Shown one piece after another: positions 2,902 through 15,725 of a DNA stretch of 22,904 nucleotides. This stretch comes from a virus: the IMG/VR virus record IMGVR_UViG_3300047496_000103, positions 1-22,904 of that record; one strand, 5' to 3'. Below the pieces are notes generated by a model that had not been told where the DNA came from, ran no database searches, and worked only from the letters and a program-made list of their open reading frames with translations. Made by a program: the position numbers and the translations under genes. Within the stretch, counting starts at the first letter, position 1. Each line of letters begins with the position of its first letter.

Positions 2902-3732
2902 TTATTTGCCGGAGAGCTTGCGTTCAATCGCAGCGCGAGCGCTAGGATCGGCACAGCGACCAGTCATCTCAATTTCGGAGACTACTTCGTCACGAATCTT
3001 ACCAGCTTTGGCGAGTTCGAACGCGGCGTCGAGAACTTCGCTCTTGGAGAACGATTCTTCGCCTTTTTCTTCAGCAGCCATCGATTTCTCGAGGGACTGA
3101 ATACCCGTGATGGACTTGGACTGACGAGGCTGAGAAGCCATCGCCTTTACAAGCTCTTGGGTTTCAGTGATAGATTTCTTGAGGATTTCGTTCTCTTTGC
3201 GGATGGACTCGGTCGCAGCAGCAACAGCCGATTTCACAAGAGTTTCTTGTTCTTTCTTAGCCGTTTCAGCTTTGCGGAGTTCTTCGGCTTCGGTCTGAGA
3301 CTTCTTGAAAGCCACAAACTCGGCGTACTCTTCTTCGCTCAGAGACTTGCGGAAAGGAGCGCTCTCAGGAGCTTTCGATTTCTCGCCACCCAACCGACCT
3401 TTTTCCGAGGTCTGGTCGATAGAAGGAGCTTGTTTCTTAGCTTCTTCGTTCTCGTCGCCCTTATCGCTCTCGTCTTCAGAGATGCTAGCGTCGTACTCGC
3501 CGTCGCGCTTTCCGTCTTCGTCCTTTTGAGGAACTTCGGAAATTTGCTTCGGACGACCTGCGCCGCGCGATTCGTCTTTTTCCATCGACGGAGCCGAGGC
3601 AATAGCCGCGTCCGCAGTGGTTTTAGAATCAGCTGCGAGGTCGATTCCCAAACCTTTCTCAACTTTATCTTCGAACAGATCATCAATCATCGAATCGATG
3701 GATTTCGTGAGAAGGTCTTTTGTGTCGCTCAT
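2902..3732 (-). CDS. Probable capsid scaffolding or internal head protein
   Basis: A 276-residue, highly charged protein with no signal peptide or membrane segment. Residues about 50-125 are an acidic, low-complexity, probably disordered stretch. Residues about 128-205 are Glu/Lys-rich and predicted to form a long helix or coiled coil. A compact C-terminal part (about 207-276, with SITGIQSLEKSM and then a helical region ending in SARAAIERKL) looks folded. This charge pattern, the position between protease and capsid genes, and the separate terminator all fit a scaffold. Family membership is inferred from composition and context, not from a conserved motif. AGGAG lies about seven bases before the ATG. 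Confidence 0.75.
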   Translation of the reverse strand: MSDTKDLLTKSIDSMIDDLFEDKVEKGLGIDLAADSKTTADAAIASAPSMEKDESRGAGRPKQISEVPQKDEDGKRDGEYDASISEDESDKGDENEEAKKQAPSIDQTSEKGRLGGEKSKAPESAPFRKSLSEEEYAEFVAFKKSQTEAEELRKAETAKKEQETLVKSAVAAATESIRKENEILKKSITETQELVKAMASQPRQSKSITGIQSLEKSMAAEEKGEESFSKSEVLDAAFELAKAGKIRDEVVSEIEMTGRCADPSARAAIERKLSGK

Positions 3733-4057: not shown

Positions 4058-4876
4058 CTAGAACTTAGTATTCAAACGGTCTTTCACCGCTTCCCAGATT
4101 TCAGTCCGGGAGAAGTTTGGATACAAAGTTTGTAGACGGTCCAAGATCAAGATCATGTTGGCTTTGTACAAGGATTTGTTCATCTTCTTCAGTTTGGACT
4201 TAACTTTCTTTTTGTCCATATCCTCTTGGCCCAGCGCGTCTCCGCCGGTTTTGAGGTTCGGGGCACCAGCCGAAGCGGGTCCGACACTGAGAGCTTTTTG
4301 AACGATAGCCAGTACTTGCGACGAAGTAAACGTCGGGGCATCCACATTAGAGTCGATGGTCGAAGTCTCTTGTACGTCGAACTCTACTTCTTGAGAAGCG
4401 TTCATGGACTTAACGACGTCGGCGAAAGTGTCTGTATTTACAGGGTTCATTGTGAGAGCTACCGCACTGATGCGGCACTTACGGATGATGGAAGGATTGA
4501 GTGGGTCGCGCTCTAGAATCTTGCCCTCGACTGAGAGCCCCATGCGACCGCGGTCGCCTTCACCCAGAGACTCCATGATCTCGCGGACAGCCTTAGCTTT
4601 GGAGTGGTTCTTGAAGAGACGGCCTTCGATGTACAAACCTTTTTCGGTGCGATTATAACCGTCTAGGACACCGATGGTGTTCTCGGGACCGTGTTGATGG
4701 TCCCAGTTCAAGATGCCGCGCTTCTTGTCGATAGGCGACAAGTCTACACCCTTCTGGATGATCATCTCGCCTTGTTGGTCGACTCGGCCAGTAGAAGCTA
4801 GACCACGAACTTTCCATTCGCCGTCTTTGGCTTTCTCTAGGGTCGCAGGAAGAATAAACTTGAAGGAATCGGACAC
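4058..4876 (-). CDS. Prohead protease (U35/HK97 family-like)
   Basis: A 272-residue protein that matures the procapsid by cleaving scaffold and capsid N-arms in related phages. The pattern of this serine protease family is visible: GLASTGRVDQQGE near residues 25-36, a histidine motif WDHQHG (H60/H62) and a serine motif GLSVEG (S115), followed by the strand ISAVALTMNPVN (136-147). Residues about 160-272 are a Lys-rich tail of unknown role. The start is a GTG with GGAG about seven bases upstream. It lies directly upstream of the 77-residue, scaffold and capsid genes, the canonical order. Confidence in the family is high; the exact catalytic His is uncertain. Confidence 0.9.
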   Translation of the reverse strand: MSDSFKFILPATLEKAKDGEWKVRGLASTGRVDQQGEMIIQKGVDLSPIDKKRGILNWDHQHGPENTIGVLDGYNRTEKGLYIEGRLFKNHSKAKAVREIMESLGEGDRGRMGLSVEGKILERDPLNPSIIRKCRISAVALTMNPVNTDTFADVVKSMNASQEVEFDVQETSTIDSNVDAPTFTSSQVLAIVQKALSVGPASAGAPNLKTGGDALGQEDMDKKKVKSKLKKMNKSLYKANMILILDRLQTLYPNFSRTEIWEAVKDRLNTKF

Positions 4877-4934: not shown

Positions 4935-5339
4935 TCATTCGGGGTCTTCGGCGGAGAATTCTTGGTCCAAATCGACTGGGTAACTAGCTTCTTCGTCCTC
5001 GGGTGAACCGTCGAGCAACTCGTTGGCTCCGTTGGCTAAAAGAGCAACCTTGAGCTCGTCTACGGCTTGCTTCAAGACGAAGTGGGTTTTGGTGTTGGAG
5101 TATCCAAAGAGCTCAGCCAATTCGGATTGGACCAACTCTTTCATAACTCCGTCTGGACTTGACTTTTCAGCCAAATACTTCCAGAAGCAATAACCGTGGT
5201 CCTTAGAATTCAACCACCAAGGACACTTGGTGTCGTCCCGTCCCCCGGTTTTATCATGAGCGCACGTGCACGCTTGGGTGCGAGTGCAACACTTCATGTC
5301 CGGGGAACGGATGACCTTGAATTTTGGCTTTTTGCCCAT
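4935..5339 (-). CDS. Cys-rich protein with a sigma-region-4-like helix-turn-helix
   Basis: A 134-residue protein. The N-terminal half has six cysteines (C17, C18, C24, C26, C39, C51) and H28, a likely metal-binding set. Residues about 66-99 (ELVQSELAELFGYSNTKTHF and the following helix) read like the region 4 helix-turn-helix of sigma70-type factors. The C-terminal 30 residues are acidic. I infer a DNA-binding regulator, perhaps one that helps host RNA polymerase at promoters lacking a good -35 box, such as those nearby. The start ATG has only a weak SD-like AAGAAG and follows the previous stop by eight bases, so translation may be coupled. Confidence 0.7.
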   Translation of the reverse strand: MGKKPKFKVIRSPDMKCCTRTQACTCAHDKTGGRDDTKCPWWLNSKDHGYCFWKYLAEKSSPDGVMKELVQSELAELFGYSNTKTHFVLKQAVDELKVALLANGANELLDGSPEDEEASYPVDLDQEFSAEDPE

Positions 5340-5347
5340 GTTGCTTC

Positions 5348-6298
5348 TTAGCGGAAGATTTCCACGAACTTACCCGTCACGATGTATTCTTTGATGAAGA
5401 CACGCTTGTTTTCGAGTGACATCAAGAGAATCTCGGTAGCTTCTTGGACGTCGGCTTTGTCGTAGAGTTGCGAAGCGTCGATGCTCACGGCGCCCTTAAT
5501 CAAAGGACACTTTGAGACCGTGGCAGTCATCTCTCCGAACATCGTTTGGAAGGACAAGTCTTCAGTACCGGTGAGAGACTCACCACACTGAACCAAGACT
5601 TCTTCGTCAGCAGCTTTGTCAGCAACCGCGTCGTATCCATAGATCCAGTACTCGTTGACCACCATCGCTTCGTACTTATTCAAGTCCATTCCCATGCGCT
5701 TAGCGGCTTGGAAGTCGAGGTAGTCTACGGCGCGGCGCACCATCTTATACCGACTCTCGAGCTCACCCTTGACTTGACCAGATAACCCACTCACAGACGC
5801 GCGGTGGCTCATCAGAATACCGTTTCGGATGATGTATCGACGGTCTAAGTTTTGAGCGATTTGAAAGCCCATCGAAGCCGCAAACAACGTCACAGTGTGG
5901 ACTTTCTGCGGTAGTGCATTGGCGAAGTCAATCAAGTCTAGACCGTCCATAATAGAACCGCCCGGAGTGTCAAGCACCAAGTAAATCGGAGTGGTCTTAG
6001 GTAGCTTCTTGGAAATCTTCTTCAGTTGCAGCATCGTGCGGGAAACTGAGTCGATAGTCACAGGACCGCGGAGAACCACAGTATTGCGAGCTTCGAGGAG
6101 CAACGTCTTTTCGACTCCAACTACTTTGAGCTCGGTCTCGTTGTCGAGCGCGTCTTCTGCGAGCTTCGGCACGGTCTCTGTTTTATTCGTGCCGTTCACG
6201 ATTTGGCGCGTGAGTGCAGAATTTGAGCGGAATGAGCTCACTAGAGGCGGGATCAACAACAAGGTCATTAGAAGACCGAATACACCGAGAGCTTTCAT
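5348..6298 (-). CDS. Membrane-anchored or secreted ClpP/crotonase-fold serine peptidase-like protein
   Basis: A 316-residue protein beginning with a hydrophobic segment (residues 4-21, LGVFGLLMTLLLIPPLV) that looks like a signal peptide or membrane anchor. Residues about 70-235 have the ClpP-like layout: a VLDTPGGS oxyanion motif (108-115), the nucleophile region FAASMGF (S142) and MSHRAS (H165). In the cytosolic paralogue at 7329 the third triad residue is an Asp about 50 residues after the His; here the matching residue is Asn (N215, in VVNEYW). The protein may have reduced or altered activity. No Clp ATPase is visible in the window. GGAGG precedes the ATG and lies partly in the loop of a small hairpin. 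Substrate and cell location are unknown; an envelope or periplasmic role is inferred from the leader. Confidence 0.82.
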   Translation of the reverse strand: MKALGVFGLLMTLLLIPPLVSSFRSNSALTRQIVNGTNKTETVPKLAEDALDNETELKVVGVEKTLLLEARNTVVLRGPVTIDSVSRTMLQLKKISKKLPKTTPIYLVLDTPGGSIMDGLDLIDFANALPQKVHTVTLFAASMGFQIAQNLDRRYIIRNGILMSHRASVSGLSGQVKGELESRYKMVRRAVDYLDFQAAKRMGMDLNKYEAMVVNEYWIYGYDAVADKAADEEVLVQCGESLTGTEDLSFQTMFGEMTATVSKCPLIKGAVSIDASQLYDKADVQEATEILLMSLENKRVFIKEYIVTGKFVEIFR

Positions 6299-6301
6299 AG
6301 T

Positions 6302-6317
6302 CAGGCCTCCATGCCTG
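6302..6317 (-). promoter_or_regulatory. Small hairpin overlapping the ribosome binding site of the ClpP-like gene
   Basis: On the minus strand a 5-bp perfect stem (CAGGC / GCCTG) encloses the loop ATGGAG, so most of the GGAGG ribosome binding site for the start at 6298 lies in the loop and its last G in the stem. It may modulate translation, but the stem is short. Confidence 0.35.
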
Positions 6318-6325
6318 GTTACGGT

Positions 6326-6508
6326 TTACGCTTGGCGTTGGGCCGAGCGCTTAAAGTACAGTTGTTCGAGGGCACAATTACAAAGCAGGATCTCGCTTTT
6401 GATCTCGCGAATGACGGGTAGATAGACGGGCGATTGCTGGAGTGAGTAACTCAACAAAGCCTGAAGCTCTTCTCGTTTGGTGACTATCCTGTGTTCTAAA
6501 GGGTCCAT
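6326..6508 (-). CDS. Small hypothetical protein with a leaderless-type start
   Basis: A 60-residue, mostly helical and charged protein with no recognised domain. No SD sequence precedes the ATG; instead -10-like boxes lie immediately upstream (TACAAT ending eight bases before it and TATAGT two bases before it). It fills the space between the RecB-like nuclease and the secreted ClpP-like gene and ends 27 bases before the latter, which has its own strong SD site. The gene is likely real given the otherwise gap-free packing, but its function is unknown. Confidence 0.6.
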   Translation of the reverse strand: MDPLEHRIVTKREELQALLSYSLQQSPVYLPVIREIKSEILLCNCALEQLYFKRSAQRQA

Positions 6509-6510
6509 TA

Positions 6511-6522
6511 ACTATAATTGTA
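6511..6522 (-). promoter_or_regulatory. -10-like boxes directly before the 60-residue gene
   Basis: On the minus strand TACAAT (6517-6522) and TATAGT (6511-6516) are adjacent. A TTGCAC lies 19 bases upstream of the first and is a possible -35. With the first box, transcription would begin at or next to the ATG at 6508, giving a leaderless or nearly leaderless messenger. Confidence 0.45.
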
Positions 6523-6547
6523 CCCAGGATTTACAGCTTGGGTGCAA

Positions 6548-7342
6548 TTAAATAGTTGGCACTTCGTCTGAGGCCTTTTTATTGGCCTCGCATCGTTTTT
6601 GATATGGACAGCTCTTGCAGTAGTCTGGAGTGGCAGCTGGGAGTTGGTCGTGGTCAGCGTACCAGATAACTTCTTGGATTTTTGTCACGATCTCCATGAA
6701 GGTACGCTCTGTGGTCGTGACAGCAAACTCGCGCATGTCGGACTTGTCTTTGTTGTAGTAGAGAAACTTTATGCCCTTGGCGGCGGTGTATCCCGAGAGT
6801 TCTGGGATGTGGGCGAACTTGCCCTCTTTCAAAGCTTTGTTGAACAAGTACAAGTAAGTTACACCTTGGACGAGGTGGTCTGGCTTCGGAGTACGAGCTT
6901 CGGCGTAGTTGAATCCGCTCATAGACTTGAACTCGCCCAACCACAACCCGTCGTCGAGAATCACGACCATGTCAATCTTGGCGAGTTTGATCTGGAGCTC
7001 GTCTGAAGATACTCTGAACTCGTAGTCTGGCGTACCGTCTTTGTTGGTGTGGAACGATCCGTCTTCCTTGCGAAATTTGATACCAGCTCCGGTCTTATAG
7101 AACGCGTCGGCCAACATTTGACCTATAGCTAGGCCCAGTTCACCTATGCGGGCACTGGAGTTGGGGAACGAGTTCTTCTCTTCGGGGGTGTTGGTGTAGT
7201 TGTAATAAATTTTACGGATGCACGGAGAGCCCAATAGATACGGCTTGATCGAGCGGTCTTTACCCGGCTTGTGGACTCGGGGTTCACGCTTGACTACAGA
7301 GTCGTACAAAGACTTCAAGTCCTTGCGATTAAAAGAGCTCAT
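6548..7342 (-). CDS. RecB/Cas4-like PD-(D/E)XK nuclease with a probable 4Fe-4S cluster
   Basis: A 264-residue protein. The nuclease core is visible: KIDMVV (D124), then GEFKS with E137 and K139 (the E-x-K motif), then the QGVTYLY motif (Q159/Y163). Four cysteines sit where Cas4 and AddB nucleases hold a 4Fe-4S cluster: C41 near the N-terminus and C242, C245 and C251 in CKSCPYQKRC at the C-terminus. The family resects or cuts DNA ends, so a role in recombination, replication or host DNA breakdown is likely. I chose the ATG at 7342, which has GGAG six bases upstream, over an in-frame TTG at 7354. The start overlaps the end of the ClpP-like gene by 14 bases. Confidence 0.88.
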   Translation of the reverse strand: MSSFNRKDLKSLYDSVVKREPRVHKPGKDRSIKPYLLGSPCIRKIYYNYTNTPEEKNSFPNSSARIGELGLAIGQMLADAFYKTGAGIKFRKEDGSFHTNKDGTPDYEFRVSSDELQIKLAKIDMVVILDDGLWLGEFKSMSGFNYAEARTPKPDHLVQGVTYLYLFNKALKEGKFAHIPELSGYTAAKGIKFLYYNKDKSDMREFAVTTTERTFMEIVTKIQEVIWYADHDQLPAATPDYCKSCPYQKRCEANKKASDEVPTI

Positions 7343-7964
7343 CGACAACTCCAAGCTTCAAGAGTTGCTCGGCGGTGAAGTAAGAGTCTTTTTTCGTTCC
7401 AGCCTCGAGCCAAAACTTGGCTGGCTTCCCAGTGAACTCTTCCATCCACTGAGCCCAGAGTTTGACTTCCTTCTCCGCTTGCAAGACCATGTCTTTGTGG
7501 TTGGAGTGGCGGTCGAAGTCGACTCCGTAACTCATCTCGTGCCACATGAAGGACGAGAACTTGGAGATCTTACGGCGTCTGCCGGCAGCCAGAATCAATG
7601 TGGCTGCAGACATAATCTCACCGTAACCCTTGGTGATGATCTGGCACTTGCTCTCTCGGATGCGGCCGACTATGGCCATAGCTTGATAACAAAACCCGCC
7701 GGGAGAGTTGATCTTGATGGTAATCGCGGCTCTGGAATCAGCTTCCATCTCAGTCAAAGTACGATCCACGAGGTTGAACATGTCCTCGTTTATCTCGCCA
7801 GTCAAGTTTAGAACTCGACGCTGGAAGTCAGCTCCGTGTTTGAATACGTACTCCAACAACAAAGACGCGTGCGTTAAACGGTCGTCGATGCTGGCACTCG
7901 GGCTGATTCTGGAGATGCCGTTGGTAGCTTTGGGCTTGAGTTTATGCGCTCGCTTTTTGTTCAC
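7329..7964 (-). CDS. Cytosolic ClpP-like serine protease
   Basis: About 211 residues with the ClpP pattern. With the GTG at 7964 as residue 1, the features are INSPGG near 85-90, the nucleophile region GEIMSAATLI (S119), MWHEMS (H142), and KKDSYFTAEQL (D193), followed by GVVDELF at the end. Spacings Ser-His (23) and His-Asp (51) match ClpP, so the triad looks intact. There is no signal peptide; the N-terminus is basic and probably flexible. The GTG is preferred because GGAGG lies nine bases before it; an ATG at 7973 directly abuts that GGAGG, and a TTG at 7991 is also possible. It overlaps the GroES-like gene's end and the nuclease gene's start, suggesting one operon. Without a visible Clp ATPase it may borrow the host's ClpX or ClpA, or act alone. 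Confidence 0.87.
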   Translation of the reverse strand: MNKKRAHKLKPKATNGISRISPSASIDDRLTHASLLLEYVFKHGADFQRRVLNLTGEINEDMFNLVDRTLTEMEADSRAAITIKINSPGGFCYQAMAIVGRIRESKCQIITKGYGEIMSAATLILAAGRRRKISKFSSFMWHEMSYGVDFDRHSNHKDMVLQAEKEVKLWAQWMEEFTGKPAKFWLEAGTKKDSYFTAEQLLKLGVVDELF

Positions 7965-8223
7965 TGGCGACATCCTCCACCCGAGCGACAATATTGGTCT
8001 CTTCCATTACTAGGATGGTGACTCCGTCGATCGTGATGGTTTGTCGCTGGTTGCCGTAGTACACTTTGGTTCCGACCTTGAGATCGGAATCAGCTAGGGC
8101 ATCGCCTACGTACTTGATTACACCGACCGAGTTCGAATCATCTGGCATGGAGAATACACTTTGAGACTTAGCGCTAGTCTTCAAAGCTTCGACTCCGACT
8201 CTATTTCCTCGCATCTTAACCAT
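7942..8223 (-). CDS. GroES-like co-chaperonin (Cpn10)
   Basis: A 93-residue protein. The Cpn10 layout is visible: an RGNRVGVEAL opening strand, a flexible segment ending in SMPD at the place of the GroEL-binding mobile loop, GVIKYVG (the usual G-x-V-x-x-V-G strand), VGTKVYYG in place of the V-G-D-x-V strand, then ITIDGVTILVMEETNIVARV as the closing strands. Family members cap GroEL; phage versions such as T4 gp31 allow folding of the capsid protein. No GroEL partner is seen in the window, so it probably works with host GroEL. AGAGG lies five bases before the ATG. It sits between the FKBP-like and ClpP-like genes in a head-gene operon. Confidence 0.85.
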   Translation of the reverse strand: MVKMRGNRVGVEALKTSAKSQSVFSMPDDSNSVGVIKYVGDALADSDLKVGTKVYYGNQRQTITIDGVTILVMEETNIVARVEDVASEQKASA

Positions 8224-8232
8224 GAGTACCTC

Positions 8233-8838
8233 TTAAGCGGTCTGGGCTTGGTCGCCGGTGGGCGCGACGGGTTCAGGCGCAGGGGTTGTAACCGGAGGCT
8301 TGGGTCTCCGAGAAATTCGATCAATCGTAATTTTAGCAGTCATAGAACCTTCGGGTCCGAAGACAACTTCGCGGGTCTCGTTCTTTTCGAGACCAAGAAC
8401 CGCGTTTTCAAGTTCGTCACCTAAGCTTTGACCGGCTCCGATGGCGTTCACCATCAAGCGCGTAACCGGCGAGAACTCAGCATCTTCAGACTTTTTGTGC
8501 GAGATGGCCAAACGGAGACGGTCGCCCAAGGCCACTCCGCCTTCAGTTACTTCCACGAAACCTTCAGCTGCATCTTCGTGGATCGCAACTTTGGTAGCGA
8601 TTTCAGCGCGGGTCACACCCAGCTTCTCTTCTAGAACTGTCTCGATAGCTTTGATTTGCATCAAGATTCCAGCGAGTTGGGATACTTGGTGACGGGCCAT
8701 CGCTTGTCCGACTTGCTGAACCTGAGCGTCGATGTACTCACCGAACTTAGCCAAGGTGGCGTCAGCGACGTACTGCTCAAAACTCTTGTTCGCGTGCGGT
8801 TTGTTGTTTCCGCCGCCGTTCGACTTCTTCTTACCCAT
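8233..8838 (-). CDS. FKBP/trigger-factor-like peptidyl-prolyl isomerase domain protein
   Basis: A 201-residue protein. Residues 1-20 are a Lys/Gly/Asn-rich tail and 20-95 are helical. Residues about 100-178 read like an FKBP or trigger-factor PPIase domain: GDRLRLAISHK, then NAIGAGQSLGDELENAVLGL, then KNETREVVF, then TAKITIDRISR, the usual order of strand, IxGxG-type turn, amphipathic helix and two closing strands. The last 20 residues are Pro/Ala-rich. Several aromatic residues typical of active FKBP pockets are missing (the usual Y, F and W positions are mostly small), so it may bind unfolded chains rather than isomerise. GGAG lies eight to nine bases before the ATG. It precedes the GroES-like gene by nine bases, suggesting joint work in folding. 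Confidence 0.72.
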   Translation of the reverse strand: MGKKKSNGGGNNKPHANKSFEQYVADATLAKFGEYIDAQVQQVGQAMARHQVSQLAGILMQIKAIETVLEEKLGVTRAEIATKVAIHEDAAEGFVEVTEGGVALGDRLRLAISHKKSEDAEFSPVTRLMVNAIGAGQSLGDELENAVLGLEKNETREVVFGPEGSMTAKITIDRISRRPKPPVTTPAPEPVAPTGDQAQTA

Positions 8839-9337
8839 TTGTGGAGCTCCGATTGAATAGCTTTTTGAATGCTAGTTTGATTAAACCAAATACGGATACT
8901 GACGTAAACCAGTCTTCGTGAGGTCGAGATACCGGGACCATAACGCAGTCTTGTTTGAGCGCGAGGTCGATCAACGCTTTTTCTAGCGTGTACACGTACC
9001 TGTCCAAACGATCTACAGTGCCAGAGTAAGTCTTGTAGAGCTGAATCGATCCGCCGCGTCGGGGACGAAACCAAAATGGATTACCCGGCTTCGTTTCTTG
9101 GATGGCTTCGTTCAAGAGCTCTACTTCGCTGATGTCGACGGGAACACCTAACAAAGCGGAAGCGTTAGCTCTGAGCCTAAGTTCACCGTCGAACTGCTCG
9201 TTCAAGTTCCGTTGTTCGACTTCGAAAGCTGAATCCACCTCAGCGATGATCTTGAGCTGAGCTTCGTTGGCCGTGGCTCTAATCCGTGAGTTGTTCTCAC
9301 GGATCGTCTTGGGTGTGAGTTTTACGAAGTCGCTCAT
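8831..9337 (-). CDS. Hypothetical protein
   Basis: A 168-residue protein I do not recognise. The first half is helical and charged (a long helix around residues 15-60 with ELRLRANASALLG). The second half contains a short aromatic and basic loop (FWFRPRRGGSI), a predicted helix (LYKTYSGTVDRLDRYVYTLE) and a basic C-terminal helix (LIKLAFKKLFNR) that could touch membrane or nucleic acid. Start and upstream stop overlap as ATGA, and no good SD is present, so translation is probably coupled to the gene before it. It overlaps the FKBP-like gene start by eight bases. Confidence 0.75.
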   Translation of the reverse strand: MSDFVKLTPKTIRENNSRIRATANEAQLKIIAEVDSAFEVEQRNLNEQFDGELRLRANASALLGVPVDISEVELLNEAIQETKPGNPFWFRPRRGGSIQLYKTYSGTVDRLDRYVYTLEKALIDLALKQDCVMVPVSRPHEDWFTSVSVFGLIKLAFKKLFNRSSTNG

Positions 9338-9849
9338 GCAATGCTCACTTGGTCGAGTGGAACTTTGATGGTGGGACCCGTCTCAGTCTTTACCACAACG
9401 AATGGGGCGTCGAGGCCTACGACCTTGCCGGTGATAGTCAAGTTCTTGTCGTTGGCTACCGTAACGTCTCGACCGGCCAAGTGGCGGTTAGCCATAGCGA
9501 AGGCCATCTTCTCACTGGGCGAGAGTTCTCCCGGAGCAACTTCTCTCTTCGGAGGAGCGGGTCGGGGCGGAGTGTTCGGATTTTCTTGGGCGAACACGGT
9601 ATTGGACTGAGCTTCTTTTGGGGGCTCGCTGAACGACAACGGGACGCCGTTCTCGATCGATTCGACTGCTTTGGTCACGAACTTACGGAGCATACCGACG
9701 ACTTCAATCTTGATGTCCTTGAAAGACTTGTGGTCGTAAGACTCGGCCGACTTCAAGATGTGGTTCAAGAACTCAATCTTGAGCTTTTCTTGTTCGAGCT
9801 GTTTCTCGCGCTCGCGCAGTTTCAGAATTTGAGCATCAATTTTCGACAT
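9334..9849 (-). CDS. Coiled-coil protein with a C-terminal SH3/KOW-like domain
   Basis: I place the start at the ATG at 9849 because GAGGA lies about ten bases upstream; a longer in-frame start at 9897 lies deep in the previous gene. The protein (171 residues) opens with a coiled-coil region (about 1-40, KLREREKQLEQEKLKIEFLN), then a Pro-rich linker (about 95-120, NTPPRPAPPKREV). It ends in a small strand-rich domain (about 135-171) with GRDVTVANDKNLTITGKVVG followed by a hydrophobic strand pair, similar in layout to SH3- or Hfq-like barrels. The function is unknown; an adaptor or RNA-binding role is speculative. Confidence 0.72.
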   Translation of the reverse strand: MSKIDAQILKLREREKQLEQEKLKIEFLNHILKSAESYDHKSFKDIKIEVVGMLRKFVTKAVESIENGVPLSFSEPPKEAQSNTVFAQENPNTPPRPAPPKREVAPGELSPSEKMAFAMANRHLAGRDVTVANDKNLTITGKVVGLDAPFVVVKTETGPTIKVPLDQVSIA

Positions 9850-10024
9850 CAGAATCTTCCTCGTCGAATTCGGTAAGTCCGAGTTCGCAGTCAACACAAA
9901 TCAGTTCGTCGTCGTTATACCGGTCGATGCACTTGGGGCAAATGTCTTGTTGTTCGCAAGACGCGCACGTCTTGGGCTCGTCTACCACTTGCTCGCCGCA
10001 CAATGCGCACTGAAATTCAATCAT
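9836..10024 (-). CDS. Small zinc-finger/RING-like protein
   Basis: About 62 residues with four CxxC pairs in a row (CALC, CASC, CPKC and CVDC), a layout that binds two zinc ions and recalls double zinc ribbons or RING-type fingers. The C-terminus is very acidic (EFDEEDSDVEN). I chose the ATG at 10024, with GGAAGG upstream and an overlap of eight bases with the previous stop, over a GTG at 10054. The role is unknown; small acidic zinc proteins in phages often bind host proteins, which is inference. Confidence 0.75.
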   Translation of the reverse strand: MIEFQCALCGEQVVDEPKTCASCEQQDICPKCIDRYNDDELICVDCELGLTEFDEEDSDVEN

Positions 10025-10264: not shown

Positions 10265-11167
10265 TTAATCGACGACTACGTCTTTAACGTAAGGAATCCA
10301 CTTGGCTAAGCCGATGTAAGTGACCGAACCGCCGGGCAAGACTTGAAAACCTGGCTTTAGTTCGATGACTTGCGAGGTTCGCGTGTTTGGGTGTGTAGCT
10401 CCGGCGACCGGCTTCCAAGCCGCTTGTGGCAAACTATAGTTCGAACCGTTTGCCAAAAGAGTTGACAGTCTGTATACTTTTGGTGCATCCCCGACGTCGC
10501 CATAGAACTTCCTGCAAAATTTGCAAGTTATGGCGTCTCCCACAATTACGCGGTAGACAAAGACTTCTTCTAGGGCCATACCTTTGTTGTCCGACGCGAT
10601 TCGGTCCACAGAACCGATACCAATTGCGTTGGACATCTCGGTCAAAGCTACGCGTTGCCAGTCCCGGTTCCCGTCCTTGGAAGTGTCGCGCAACAGTTGC
10701 TTTACCTTGCCCAAGCTAGATTCTTTGATGAGTTCTTCTGCGATTGAAGTTCGACCCGGGTTGTTTATGGTGTCAAACTTATAGGCATCATTGTTCGCCC
10801 GTACGATGTTCTCGATTCGAGTGGTCGTGTCTACCGCGAGCTTGTCTATGAATTGCTTCGTCCGGTCGTTCACGCTTTGAACTGAGTATCTAGTCTCAGC
10901 CGTATTGGGCTTCTCGGTCGATTGTTGGGCTCGCATCTCCTTCAAGTTCTTGGGAGAGTGCTTAGAAATCGGGTTGTTGATGTAATTATGGTAATAAATC
11001 GCAGACAGCAAAGACTCGCGGTTCGAGGTATCGATACCGACATCTTGCATGCGCTTGAGTTCGTCTTTGGTGAATACTTGTGAACCCAAAACTGAAACGG
11101 TCATCATAGAGTAGTGCTTCTCGATGATTCGACGGATCTTCTCTAGAGTCTCGCGTGAAGTCACCAT
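10265..11167 (-). CDS. Phage Mu gpF/SPP1 gp7-like head morphogenesis protein
   Basis: A 300-residue protein. The N-terminal two thirds are helical. The C-terminal third has the motif series of this family: ALTEMSNAIGIGSVDRI (about 173-190), VGDAITCKFCRKFYGD with a CxxC, and ATHPNTRTSQV, matching the usual D-x-x-T-C-x-x-C and H-P-N-C-R-C pattern, although the later Cys residues are replaced. Family members are minor head proteins, linked to portal or capsid and needed early in head assembly. Location near the portal supports this. TAATG overlap with the previous stop, with GGAG about ten bases upstream. Confidence 0.82.
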   Translation of the reverse strand: MVTSRETLEKIRRIIEKHYSMMTVSVLGSQVFTKDELKRMQDVGIDTSNRESLLSAIYYHNYINNPISKHSPKNLKEMRAQQSTEKPNTAETRYSVQSVNDRTKQFIDKLAVDTTTRIENIVRANNDAYKFDTINNPGRTSIAEELIKESSLGKVKQLLRDTSKDGNRDWQRVALTEMSNAIGIGSVDRIASDNKGMALEEVFVYRVIVGDAITCKFCRKFYGDVGDAPKVYRLSTLLANGSNYSLPQAAWKPVAGATHPNTRTSQVIELKPGFQVLPGGSVTYIGLAKWIPYVKDVVVD

Positions 11168-11708: not shown

Positions 11709-13790
11709 TTAATCCTTCAGAGTGTAGTACTCGACCTTGACTTTGCGGGGCTTTTTGGACTTGACGACTGGCTCGTCTTCTTCGGGAGCGACTACGTTGT
11801 TCTCGAGGTTGTCGGGATGCATTACTGAATCGTCGCCGAATTCAAAACCGTCTGGGTCTTGGTTCTCGTCCTTACCGTTCTCGTCGCCACCAGGAGGAGC
11901 TCCGCCTGGAGGATTTGCAGCTGCAGCTTCGGCGTTCTTCTTCTGAAGTTCTTGACCTTTGTCAGAAAACTGAGAATACCACGACATGTAGTTCGTTTCT
12001 AAGATTACGTCATCCATGCCCGGAAGAGGCGGAAGTCCGTCCTCGGCACGAATCTCATTGACCGTCTTCTTGAACTTAACTTCTTTCTCTTGACGCTCCA
12101 ACGACTCCATCCGAGTCTCGTTGGTAATGCCCGTGAATCTCAGGATGAACCGAGAGTCGAACGGCTTAATAATTTGCTCGTTGACGTAGTTCTCGATGTG
12201 GCGGAGGAGGGGATAGAGACCTTTGTCCTTCGAAGCTTCCATCTTGTGCTTCGTGTTGTCCCCGGACATCCCTTGACCGCCGGTACCTTCATCCTTGAAG
12301 GCGATCCCAATTTCGGCTGGATCGATTTGATAAATAGCGCAAATCATCTTGATGAGATAACGCATCCATCCTTCGAACCCGATGTCGTTGTGATTCTGGG
12401 TCAACGGTATCCACTCGACGTCGTCCATGCCGGCGAAGATTGGAGTCTGGAAAGAGTTGCGGGAACCCTTCAACATGTGTTGCCACTGTTGGCGAATGGT
12501 CTCGATCTTGCGGCGATTTAGGGCCGCTTTGATGTGGAGAATGCCCTTGGCGGAGAAGCCTTGAGTGAAATAAGCTTGGTTGTAGAACTCAGCGTTCAAG
12601 TGACCAGTCACGAGACCAACCACGAGTTCGAGCTCAGAAACGCCGTATCCGTTGTTGTAGATGTCGGTCGTCATGTTGCGCACGCCGAGTTTCAGCTCGT
12701 CAGCCGTGTAAGCGCGTTCGATCTTGCCCCGGATGACTTGAACGTATTTGTACTCGTTCTTCGCGAGTAGTTCCGGTTTCAACTCAAGAATCTTTTGCTT
12801 CTCGATTTGCTGAGCTTGTTTCTCTGGGAACAACAAGTCCAAGTTCAAAAAGTTCTCAGCGACTTCTTTGTATCGGCTGAGCTCTAGAGTGGCAAACTTA
12901 ATGGTTCCGGCATCTATAGGGAACCAGTGGTGGACACGACCGGCGTTGTCTGGCACGATTTCAGTGGTGTACCGATCGTACGTCAAGGAGTCGCGGACCC
13001 AAGCTCGGAGAGCCAAATCGAAGTCCCAGCGCAGAGTATCGAACGGACGGTTGTCCGTGATGCCGCAATTTATGACGAAGTCTTGAACGCGCTTCTTGGC
13101 TTTCTTGAACTGAGACTCTAGTTTTTCACGGGCTTTGCGCTCGAGTTCCCAGTTGTAAGCTTCGACTTCGTCGTCGCTCTGAGAAGCGCCAGAAGTGTTG
13201 TCCATTCCGTCTGTGGAGTCTGACCCAGATAAATCGTCGCCAGCTTCTTCGGAATCTTGCGAACCGTCTTGGCTCGCCATCGAATCGCCTTGAGCTTTCG
13301 CCACGGATTCTTCCGGATCGAGCTCAACTTGGTCTGCGCCCGGCTCTTCGCCGTCTTCCGGCATTTCTTTTCCGCCCAGCTCGTCGGCCGCGCCTTGCGC
13401 TTCGAGTTCAGCTTTAATCTTTTGGAGGAGCGCATCTTCGTCGCGCAAACAAAGCATCCAACCGCGTTCTTTCTCTGACTTAACTAATTTGGAATGGTTG
13501 GCAACTTGATTTTGACGGGTCTGAATGATTGCCGAGATGACGGAGTTCTTCAAGCTCATTTGCTTGAGGTGGCCGTCCATTAGGCGATAAGGCTTGTCTT
13601 TCCATCCGGAGGCGTTGATAGCGTACGAGGGGTCTTCGGTGATGGTCTTACCGAAGTAAAACTCGTCTTCCAGGTTGTCCTGGTTCATCACGATGGACGT
13701 CTTCGCTTTATGAAGCTGAGCGTCCACCATTGCGTGACCGGCCTCGAGCATCTTGGAGAAAATCGAAGGTTTGTTGTCCTGATCGGCCAT
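11709..13790 (-). CDS. Portal protein
   Basis: A 693-residue protein forming the ring through which DNA enters the head. Support comes from its length, its place directly after the large terminase, and the core segments (DFDLALRAWVRDSLTYDRYT, then HHWFPIDAGTIKF, then QTPIFAGMDDVEWIPLTQNH, then RYLIKMICAIYQIDPAEIGI) that have the shape of phage portal wing and stem regions. Residues about 138-215 are an acidic, Ser/Asp/Glu-rich insertion, and the last 75 residues are acidic and Pro/Gly-rich, probably disordered. AGAGG lies four bases before the ATG. It has its own -10 box upstream. Confidence 0.9.
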   Translation of the reverse strand: MADQDNKPSIFSKMLEAGHAMVDAQLHKAKTSIVMNQDNLEDEFYFGKTITEDPSYAINASGWKDKPYRLMDGHLKQMSLKNSVISAIIQTRQNQVANHSKLVKSEKERGWMLCLRDEDALLQKIKAELEAQGAADELGGKEMPEDGEEPGADQVELDPEESVAKAQGDSMASQDGSQDSEEAGDDLSGSDSTDGMDNTSGASQSDDEVEAYNWELERKAREKLESQFKKAKKRVQDFVINCGITDNRPFDTLRWDFDLALRAWVRDSLTYDRYTTEIVPDNAGRVHHWFPIDAGTIKFATLELSRYKEVAENFLNLDLLFPEKQAQQIEKQKILELKPELLAKNEYKYVQVIRGKIERAYTADELKLGVRNMTTDIYNNGYGVSELELVVGLVTGHLNAEFYNQAYFTQGFSAKGILHIKAALNRRKIETIRQQWQHMLKGSRNSFQTPIFAGMDDVEWIPLTQNHNDIGFEGWMRYLIKMICAIYQIDPAEIGIAFKDEGTGGQGMSGDNTKHKMEASKDKGLYPLLRHIENYVNEQIIKPFDSRFILRFTGITNETRMESLERQEKEVKFKKTVNEIRAEDGLPPLPGMDDVILETNYMSWYSQFSDKGQELQKKNAEAAAANPPGGAPPGGDENGKDENQDPDGFEFGDDSVMHPDNLENNVVAPEEDEPVVKSKKPRKVKVEYYTLKD

Positions 13791-13886: not shown

Positions 13887-15725
13887 TTAGCCGAAATCGA
13901 AATTCGGGCCGTCGTCTTCCTCTTCCTCGGCGTCCTCGAACTGGTCCTTTCTCTTGAGTCTTCCGTCCATAGGGTCGATGCCGTACAGCTCAGAGTTGTC
14001 CATTACGTTCTCAGCCAAGTGGCCTGAAGCGACTAACATTTCTGGACTGGGCGCTGTGAAAGCTTTGCCGTCCACATCGGTCTTGACCCCATATGACTTG
14101 ACCGGCAAAGCCGATTCAAACTCAAACTTACCGGTGGTCTGACCTTCCGTCGCCAAGAAAGAGGCTACGGCTAGAGAGTCCGCGAAGTCGTCCTTACCGC
14201 CTGCAGGATGACCAATTTTGATGGTTCCAGTAGCGGACTGTTCTACGACCAGCTCTTTGAGTTCCTTCGCTTGTTGTTCGTGGTCCAACAAGTCCATTTG
14301 CTGAGAGTTGATGAGCTTCTTCAAGTTGAAGTAAATCTTCTTCTTGAACATCGGTGCGAACGTGTACTCGCGGAGCTCCACGTTGTATTGGTCAAAAATC
14401 TCTTTCAAGGGCTGAAACGCAAACTGATCGGCGGCCACGAAATCAACCGGAAAACTCTTGGTGATATTCTTGATGTACTGGGCGACCGTGTGCGCTTTGA
14501 CGGGTTCTTTTCTGGAACCCTCCCAGCCCATGGTTACGTGCTGAGTCACCCGGTTCTCGCGGACCGAGACGATCGTGAACGTGAATCTGTCAGCTTTGAA
14601 AGCGGCGTCTATGGCAGCGAAGTACTTAGCTTCTTTGGTATCCAACGGAGCTAAAAACTTAACTGTCCTCATCCGAGCGATTTCGACCATCTCGGGAGAC
14701 ATGAAGTTGCTCAAGGAATCTGCGAAGTTGGAACGGTACTCAGTGTCGAAACCGTCTTGGTCGAGCTCCCACTCTTCTATGATTTCTTTGTTCGGAATCA
14801 GCGAATTCATCATCCAAGTCGGCGCCTTGAACACGGCGTAAGACTTCGGCAACTTACCGTCGCGATCGGCTTTGTACTCGTTGTATAGTACGCCTTGCTT
14901 GATTCCAGGCGACGAGAGCTTGATTAGCATCGCCAAGTCGCCGAACTGTTTGGTGGCCGGACGGACGGCTTTCATGATCTTGACGTCCGTCTCCTTCATA
15001 GTTTCATCCAAGTTCCAGTACGCGATCTCATCGCAAAGTACTGCGCACGCGGCCATGCCACGAGTAGTCTTGCTGGAGGCAGCGCCCACTTTAATCTGAA
15101 CTTTGGAGTACTCGATCACGCCGCCCTCGATGACCCACGGTACTTTTAGGTTCATCGCCGACGTAGTTTGTTTCGCTTGGTTGTTGATGAGCTTGGATAA
15201 AATGGGGGAAGCCTCTATGAGACTCTTTATTACCTCGAGAACTTCGTCAGAAAATTCTCTGGAGTGAGACATGATGAGAACCGTCGCAAACGGGGTCTTC
15301 TTCAAGAACGGTTTCCAGTTGTTTGAGATGGCGCAATAAATAGCTACAATCGCCGAGATGAGGGTCTTACCAGAGCGGCGACCACAAATCAAGTCGATTT
15401 TGTTGACTTTGACTTCTTCGATTGCTTTTGGATCGTACGGTTTGTCGGTCAAGAACTCGTAGATCTCTACTTCGGTCATGGACGCTGTAATCAGCGCGAA
15501 TCTACCGTCTAAGTCTTGGGCTTCGATTTGGACTATGCGCTTAGCATCTGGATCCAGAGTCTTCTGGAAAATGACCTTCAGAATCACTTCTTGAACCGGA
15601 GTCGGTTCTAGATCCATGAATCCGCCAGCCTTCACGAAGTTCTCGATTGGATCTTCCTTGATCCTCTCGATGACTTTTGAGAAAACCGCAGCGAATTGCT
15701 TCGCGTTGAGTTTATCTATTTCCAT
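13887..15725 (-). CDS. terL: Terminase large subunit (packaging ATPase and nuclease)
   Basis: A 612-residue protein. The ATPase has Walker A GRRSGKT (115-121), Walker B CAVLCDE (227-233, with D232/E233) and the coupling motif SSPG (271-274). The RNase H-like nuclease has acidic residues at D373 (AAIDAA), D433 (AADQF) and D513 or D516 (KDDFADSLA). It cuts concatemeric DNA and pumps it into the prohead through the portal. The ATG directly follows the small subunit's TAA. The C-terminal 30 residues are very acidic (EEEEDDGPNFDFG). The length is normal for the family. Confidence 0.95.
   Translation of the reverse strand: MEIDKLNAKQFAAVFSKVIERIKEDPIENFVKAGGFMDLEPTPVQEVILKVIFQKTLDPDAKRIVQIEAQDLDGRFALITASMTEVEIYEFLTDKPYDPKAIEEVKVNKIDLICGRRSGKTLISAIVAIYCAISNNWKPFLKKTPFATVLIMSHSREFSDEVLEVIKSLIEASPILSKLINNQAKQTTSAMNLKVPWVIEGGVIEYSKVQIKVGAASSKTTRGMAACAVLCDEIAYWNLDETMKETDVKIMKAVRPATKQFGDLAMLIKLSSPGIKQGVLYNEYKADRDGKLPKSYAVFKAPTWMMNSLIPNKEIIEEWELDQDGFDTEYRSNFADSLSNFMSPEMVEIARMRTVKFLAPLDTKEAKYFAAIDAAFKADRFTFTIVSVRENRVTQHVTMGWEGSRKEPVKAHTVAQYIKNITKSFPVDFVAADQFAFQPLKEIFDQYNVELREYTFAPMFKKKIYFNLKKLINSQQMDLLDHEQQAKELKELVVEQSATGTIKIGHPAGGKDDFADSLAVASFLATEGQTTGKFEFESALPVKSYGVKTDVDGKAFTAPSPEMLVASGHLAENVMDNSELYGIDPMDGRLKRKDQFEDAEEEEDDGPNFDFG

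Follow-up and report, generated by a model that had tools for sequence, protein, structure and literature searches.

A conserved block of folding and ClpP-like protease genes beside the head genes of uncultivated phages with an SPO1-like head

The virus record IMGVR_UViG_3300047496_000103 of IMG/VR is a phage fragment of 22,904 bases, analysed here over its whole length (the window). Its genes lie almost wholly on the minus strand, to which all window gene coordinates below refer. They run from SbcC/D-like and RuvC-like genes through terminase, portal and small genes to a cassette of folding and protease genes, followed by the prohead protease, a scaffold-like gene and the major capsid protein (MCP). 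The cassette encodes an FKBP-fold, trigger-factor-like protein of 201 residues (8233–8838), a GroES/Cpn10-like co-chaperonin of 93 residues (7942–8223) and two ClpP-like proteases: CLP1 (7329–7964), a soluble S14 serine protease, and CLP2 (5348–6298), which is predicted to be membrane-anchored or secreted. All four open reading frames (ORFs), first picked out in a sequence-only reading of the window, were confirmed at these positions. They do lie near each other, as that reading held, and are not consecutive. Between the two ClpPs sits a gene that it missed, for a Cas4-like PD-(D/E)XK exonuclease (6548–7354; PHROG ‘CRISPR/Cas system associated’ 4.8e-26, Cas4-domain exonuclease 8.5e-12), together with a 60-codon ORF of no assigned function (6326–6508) that has matches in the closest relatives (L001, L002, L008, L010 and L038). 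A conserved gene with no assigned function and no match in a PHROG search (4935–5339) separates CLP2 from the prohead protease. Two co-conserved genes, also of no assigned function, lie upstream: 8831–9337 directly precedes the FKBP-like gene with an 8-base overlap, and 9334–9897 was used as the upstream border of the cassette. Inspected by eye, the C-terminal part of the 9334–9897 protein resembles Sm/SH3 domains (TGKVVGLDAPFVVVKTETGPTIKVPLDQVSI); database comparison gave nothing convincing for it.

Searching IMG/VR with the capsid protein located 36 related loci; all relatives are environmental contigs and possibly incomplete. Linkage was counted over the 22 non-redundant relative loci that span the region from the 9334–9897 gene to the prohead protease. 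All of these (22/22) carry the FKBP-like and GroES genes together in one block; the 4935–5339 gene is also present in 22, the Cas4-like gene in 21, CLP1 in 20 (as several sequence types) and CLP2 in 18. Gene order is constant, with the sole exception of L036, where CLP1 lies upstream, and CLP1 is beside GroES in 19/22. Since the block recurs in every spanning relative, its order is not due to chance. The sequence-only reading had set scattering of the genes in related phages against itself; they are not scattered, and its claim of one conserved folding-plus-proteolysis cassette by the head genes stands. In contig G009 the intact block adjoins portal and terminase, and the protease, scaffold and capsid genes are elsewhere in the contig; the block thus holds together independently of them. 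Locus L032 was considered as a cassette-free example and rejected, the block being intact elsewhere on its contig.

Neighbouring genes from 8831–9337 through the Cas4-like gene are spaced by −26 to +9 bases. Overlaps or gaps within 9 bases, from 9337 down to 6548, suggest a single transcript. A promoter and terminator scan gave counts near chance and found no clear internal terminator inside the cassette. The cassette genes are under purifying selection in the closest usable comparison, L020 versus L051/L052, where the ratio of non-synonymous to synonymous substitution rates (dN/dS) is about 0.17 for the FKBP-like gene, 0.04–0.08 for GroES, 0.01–0.02 for CLP1 and 0.3 for CLP2 (the last from L020 versus L051). 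The CLP2 ratio is near 1 in very close pairs, but dS there is only 0.01–0.02. Chance ORFs were considered and rejected, as all the genes are supported by database matches or by their fold and are under purifying selection.

The constant order could reflect plain inheritance within a conservative structural module, the genes having unrelated jobs and no joint function. Synteny is frequent in phage structural modules, and unrelated genes interleaved in the cassette (the Cas4-like nuclease and the 4935–5339 gene) are equally conserved. The order nevertheless persists where identity has dropped to about 61% for the MCP and about 30% for the FKBP-like and GroES proteins, the block stays whole when apart from the protease–capsid genes, and cultured relatives lack it. 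In the cultured herellevirus Exiguobacterium phage vB_EalM-132, the genes for protease, scaffold and capsid come immediately after the portal gene, which implies that the block was either gained in the present lineage or lost in the other; of the cassette genes, only the protease was found in the vB_EalM-132 and Bacteroides phage DAC19 regions. The window GroES and FKBP-like proteins had no match, even at E=1, in a tblastn search of 50,697 phage records. We regard plain inheritance as an unlikely explanation.

The folds proposed in the sequence-only reading for the four proteins are supported. The window GroES-like protein passes the Pfam Cpn10 cut-off narrowly (2.3e-4; 21.6 bits against 21.1) and matches the PHROG co-chaperonin GroES at 9e-6. 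Doubt over the narrow score is removed by the family profile, which finds solved GroES in the PDB (1.9e-7), and by the 14/18 family members that match Cpn10 individually. The mobile loop is the part of GroES that grips GroEL. In this family it carries a conserved hydrophobic motif (positions 23–24 hydrophobic in 18/18, P27 in 11/18, D/E28 in 16/18) and resembles the aligned loop of solved GroES. Most of the solved GroES proteins in the alignment have a longer roof hairpin region.

GroEL itself is encoded in 9/12 relative contigs, including 6/6 over 100 kb; the three contigs without it are fragments of 32–64 kb. The phage GroEL family matches E. coli GroEL over nearly the full length (PDB profile, about 1e-123) and has retained the motif GDGTTT as well as the D in both TKDGV and EDA, which are ATPase contexts. 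We assign it as a full-length Cpn60 with ATPase motifs. Because the relatives carry their own GroEL, the lid more probably serves the phage cage, with which it would pair, than hijacks that of the host, and the earlier suggestion that the cassette redirects host GroEL is weakened. Host GroEL as the only partner was rejected as the default for the same reason. We note that the GroEL of contig G007 contains an intein-like insert of about 320 residues, with a LAGLIDADG domain, within the ATP motif at GDG|TTT (L120:3678-6275); the first residue following GDG is Pro, not Cys or Ser. The GroEL of G003 (L114:2-1546) begins in the tail of an insert of the same kind.

The FKBP-like protein consists of N-terminal helices (residues 20–73 and 77–91) followed by an FKBP-like beta domain at about 95–177. 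The single window sequence gave no meaningful Pfam match for the FKBP fold. FKBP_C is matched by 5/16 family members, the best at 1.2e-4. Structure prediction, proposed in the sequence-only reading as a check, agrees: the AlphaFold model (predicted local distance difference test score 84) has trigger factor as its best PDB match in Foldseek (4.9e-5), followed by SlyD and FKBPs, with probability 1.00.

CLP1 matches Pfam S14 at 3.7e-18 and a PDB profile at 1.8e-18; an alternative TTG start at 7991 is possible. Its triad is Ser119–His142–Asp193, of which Ser119 and His142 are invariant and Asp193, present in the window, is Asn in two relatives. The slot between GroES and the Cas4-like gene is occupied by a clearly different ClpP in L001, L009, L012 and L026 (one type) and in L024 and L025 (another), all of them S14 by Pfam where tested; L011 and L016 have no ClpP there. 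This refilling suggests that ClpP activity, and not one sequence, is selected. A phage-supplied ClpX was looked for and rejected: models for AAA_2, ClpB_D2-small and ClpS, which worked in control genomes, matched in none of the 12 relative contigs. The phage thus apparently supplies lid and cage, but not the unfoldase for its ClpP. The L001 contig carries a full-length tmRNA gene (L130:4850-5258, equal to G001 104850-105258; RF00023, 103 bits) with the tag ANDNVVSLNAFRARKNVVSLQHAA, and no tmRNA above the cut-off was found in the other 11 related contigs. With tmRNA and a phage ClpP together, tagged proteins could be fed to proteolysis.

CLP2 matches Pfam S14 at 1.8e-11, and its AlphaFold model superimposes on ClpP (3e-14) with a root-mean-square deviation of 1.9 Å over 167 columns. 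An N-terminal hydrophobic segment is present in 15/16 aligned members, the remaining one being a truncated fragment. Across 75 phage sequences Ser142, His165, Glu216, Asp231, Cys238 and Cys264 are unchanged wherever covered (Ser142 in 75/75 and His165 in 74/75 sequences). In a hand alignment Glu216 occupies the position of the ClpP catalytic Asp, and the apparent triad is Ser–His–Glu. The cysteine pair (Cys238/Cys264) fits a disulfide and hence would place the domain outside the cytoplasm. From this pair and the N-terminal segment CLP2 is predicted not to be a soluble cytoplasmic enzyme, and judged by its sequence it is a separate, distinct type of protease. Searching the cultured phage records with CLP2 returned just three weak partial matches. 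A search of 84,980 genomes returned three contigs from metagenome-assembled genomes, all without the cassette, and no host was assigned; the same genomes gave no prophage or host assignment with the MCP. In L063, L084 and L104, which are outside the lineage, a CLP1-like gene lies just upstream of a CLP2-like gene and no chaperone genes are present. A trypsin-like protease with an N-terminal hydrophobic segment takes the position of CLP2 in L016 (L016:6282-7034), and a subtilase adjoins CLP2 in L024 (L024:5902-6642). These two loci hint that the slot selects a secreted serine protease.

The two proteases allow other readings of the cassette. In one, the GroES-like and FKBP-like proteins would help the capsid to fold, as T4 gp31 does, and the ClpPs would be auxiliary head proteases that process scaffold or portal-region proteins and have no part in quality control. 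The location between portal and prohead protease fits this, as does the best PHROG match of CLP1, ‘head maturation protease’; head proteases of the ClpP type are frequent among phages. However, the window has a dedicated prohead protease, conserved beside the cassette, the membrane helix and cysteine pair of CLP2 are unlikely for an enzyme of the capsid interior, and in G009 the cassette is separated from the protease–capsid genes. Such a head-protease role has, in our judgement, a minor but appreciable chance of being correct. Alternatively, the ClpPs may be directed at the host. CLP1 would form mixed or decoy rings with host ClpP, or use host ClpX/A against host proteins, CLP2 would degrade envelope proteins (in lysis or superinfection exclusion), and the chaperones would merely share a late operon. 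The failure to find a phage Clp ATPase favours this, together with the occurrence of CLP2 alone in unrelated phages and the trypsin-like protease and subtilase at or beside its position; a review of jumbo phages also suggests that proteases of patchy distribution act on the host, naming ClpP first (PMC7824862). Against it, the position of CLP1 beside GroES and the refilling of its slot by different ClpP types suggest a link to the folding genes, and the envelope location of CLP2 is itself a prediction. We consider this reading improbable.

The remaining genes of the window place its source. The MCP (1210–2625) is of the SPO1/herellevirus type (phrog_752, 3.4e-54), the dedicated prohead (head maturation) protease lies at 4058–4876 (phrog_1028, 3.4e-39), the portal protein at 11709–13790 (phrog_12, 1.5e-42) and the terminase large subunit at 13887–15725 (phrog_2, 1.2e-14). 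A probable scaffold (2902–3732) had no match in a PHROG search; its position before the MCP, its charged, low-complexity sequence and its conservation in relatives suggest the role. The gene at 10265–11167, labelled as head morphogenesis-like in the sequence-only reading, has a position conserved in relatives, and neither Pfam nor PHROG gave a match for that label. The MCP type and the portal–protease–scaffold–capsid order are those of the SPO1/herellevirus head module. The MCP is only about 29% identical to those of cultured phages, e.g. Bacillus SPO1-like and Bacteroides DAC phages, and megablast of the window against the 50,697 phage records gave zero matches. We assign the source lineage to uncultivated phages with an SPO1-like head. 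A strong 17-pair hairpin with a T-rich tail (window 2832–2795, minus strand) lies between the scaffold-like gene and the MCP; it may be a partial terminator or else a site of processing. In the L001 contig the stretch preceding the capsid gene is dense with HNH-type genes (L040:10317-12209), and L032 has several HNH-like ORFs upstream of its protease.

Parts of the cassette have counterparts in known systems. T4 and RB49 encode a GroES (gp31 and CocO, respectively) that works with host GroEL, a phage-encoded lid linked to head protein folding (PMC9598537), as is proposed here. The present gene differs in being part of a conserved block that also encodes an FKBP-fold protein and ClpPs, in a lineage whose relatives encode GroEL. 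The phages EL, OBP and AR9 also supply a GroEL-like chaperonin, reported to work without a co-chaperonin (PMC9598537; PMC7185714), whereas the present GroEL aligns with the E. coli protein from end to end, and the genomes also carry GroES. Some phages carry both GroEL and GroES (PMC7185714). DAC19 has adjacent groES and groEL at the genome end (MT074139.1 176974-178822), and Vibrio phage K469 has both, apart; each holds both chaperonin parts in one genome, as do the GroEL-bearing relatives studied here, but the head region of DAC19 showed no FKBP-like or ClpP-like cassette gene. The protein genes inspected in that region are all annotated as hypothetical. In bacteria tig is found beside clpP/clpX, and in E. 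coli trigger factor has been shown to make ClpXP degrade some new proteins faster (PMC7804408). The phage block shares the proximity of a trigger-factor-like gene to clpP; unlike the bacterial arrangement, it has GroES and no clpX, and its FKBP-like protein is not a full trigger factor. ClpP has been noted in jumbo phages (PMC7824862); like it, head maturation proteases of the ClpP type (phrog_94 and others) place an S14 protease in a phage genome. The present block differs in having two dissimilar ClpP-like genes, one of them apparently membrane-anchored, beside a separate prohead protease. The claim in the sequence-only reading that no phage system with this combination is described holds within the literature searched, where phages with GroES, with GroEL and GroES, or with ClpP are each known (PMC7185714, PMC7824862). 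Our literature search turned up no published block that combines FKBP-like, GroES and ClpP genes; many subscription journals lay outside its coverage, and the novelty is thus provisional.

On balance, and with confidence only a little better than even, we favour a phage lineage with an SPO1-like head that has its own protein-quality-control set for late infection. In this scheme the FKBP-fold, trigger-factor-like protein would hold nascent late proteins, and the GroES-like protein would cap a GroEL whose gene lies elsewhere in that phage's genome, so that capsid and other virion proteins are folded. CLP1, probably partnered by a ClpX/A/C unfoldase of the host, would clear away host factors or chains that are misfolded or in excess. 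CLP2 may work at, or beyond, the inner membrane, with a partly separate function in the same operon. We infer the clients, the GroEL–GroES pairing, the use of a ClpP partner and the membrane topology of CLP2.

A number of observations weigh against this quality-control scheme. The putative role of the cassette in capsid folding is deduced from its position. The window record, a 22.9 kb fragment, itself contains no GroEL, which is assumed for this phage from its relatives. The Pfam trigger-factor models (ribosome-binding N domain and C-terminal chaperone domain) are matched by 0/16 family members; we read the protein as having an FKBP-type domain, yet as not being a trigger factor by membership. 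The FKBP12 pocket residues Tyr26, Asp37 and Trp59 appear to be replaced, as read by hand from an alignment with FKBP2. Isomerase activity appears doubtful, and a binding role without it is the better guess. Proteolysis is not obligate, since two of the 22 loci have no ClpP at all and CLP2 is missing from four. Many phages outside this lineage have relatives of CLP2 with no GroES or FKBP gene next to them, and CLP2 may accordingly not belong functionally to the folding genes. A bolder version, which we hold to be speculative and rather unlikely, would give the phage its own co-translational triage line, from the FKBP-fold chaperone to either the phage GroEL/GroES cage or the phage ClpP, together with a new class of membrane-anchored, disulfide-stabilised Ser–His–Glu ClpP protease for envelope proteins.

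Chaperonins and ClpP of phages were already known, mostly as isolated genes. What appears to be new here is a compact, conserved trigger-factor-like, GroES and ClpP block lying beside the capsid genes of phages that encode GroEL as well. The CLP2 family of 75 sequences represents a distinct, widespread phage protease that is worth biochemical study in itself. The block makes it testable whether a virus runs its own folding-and-degradation system or borrows that of its host.

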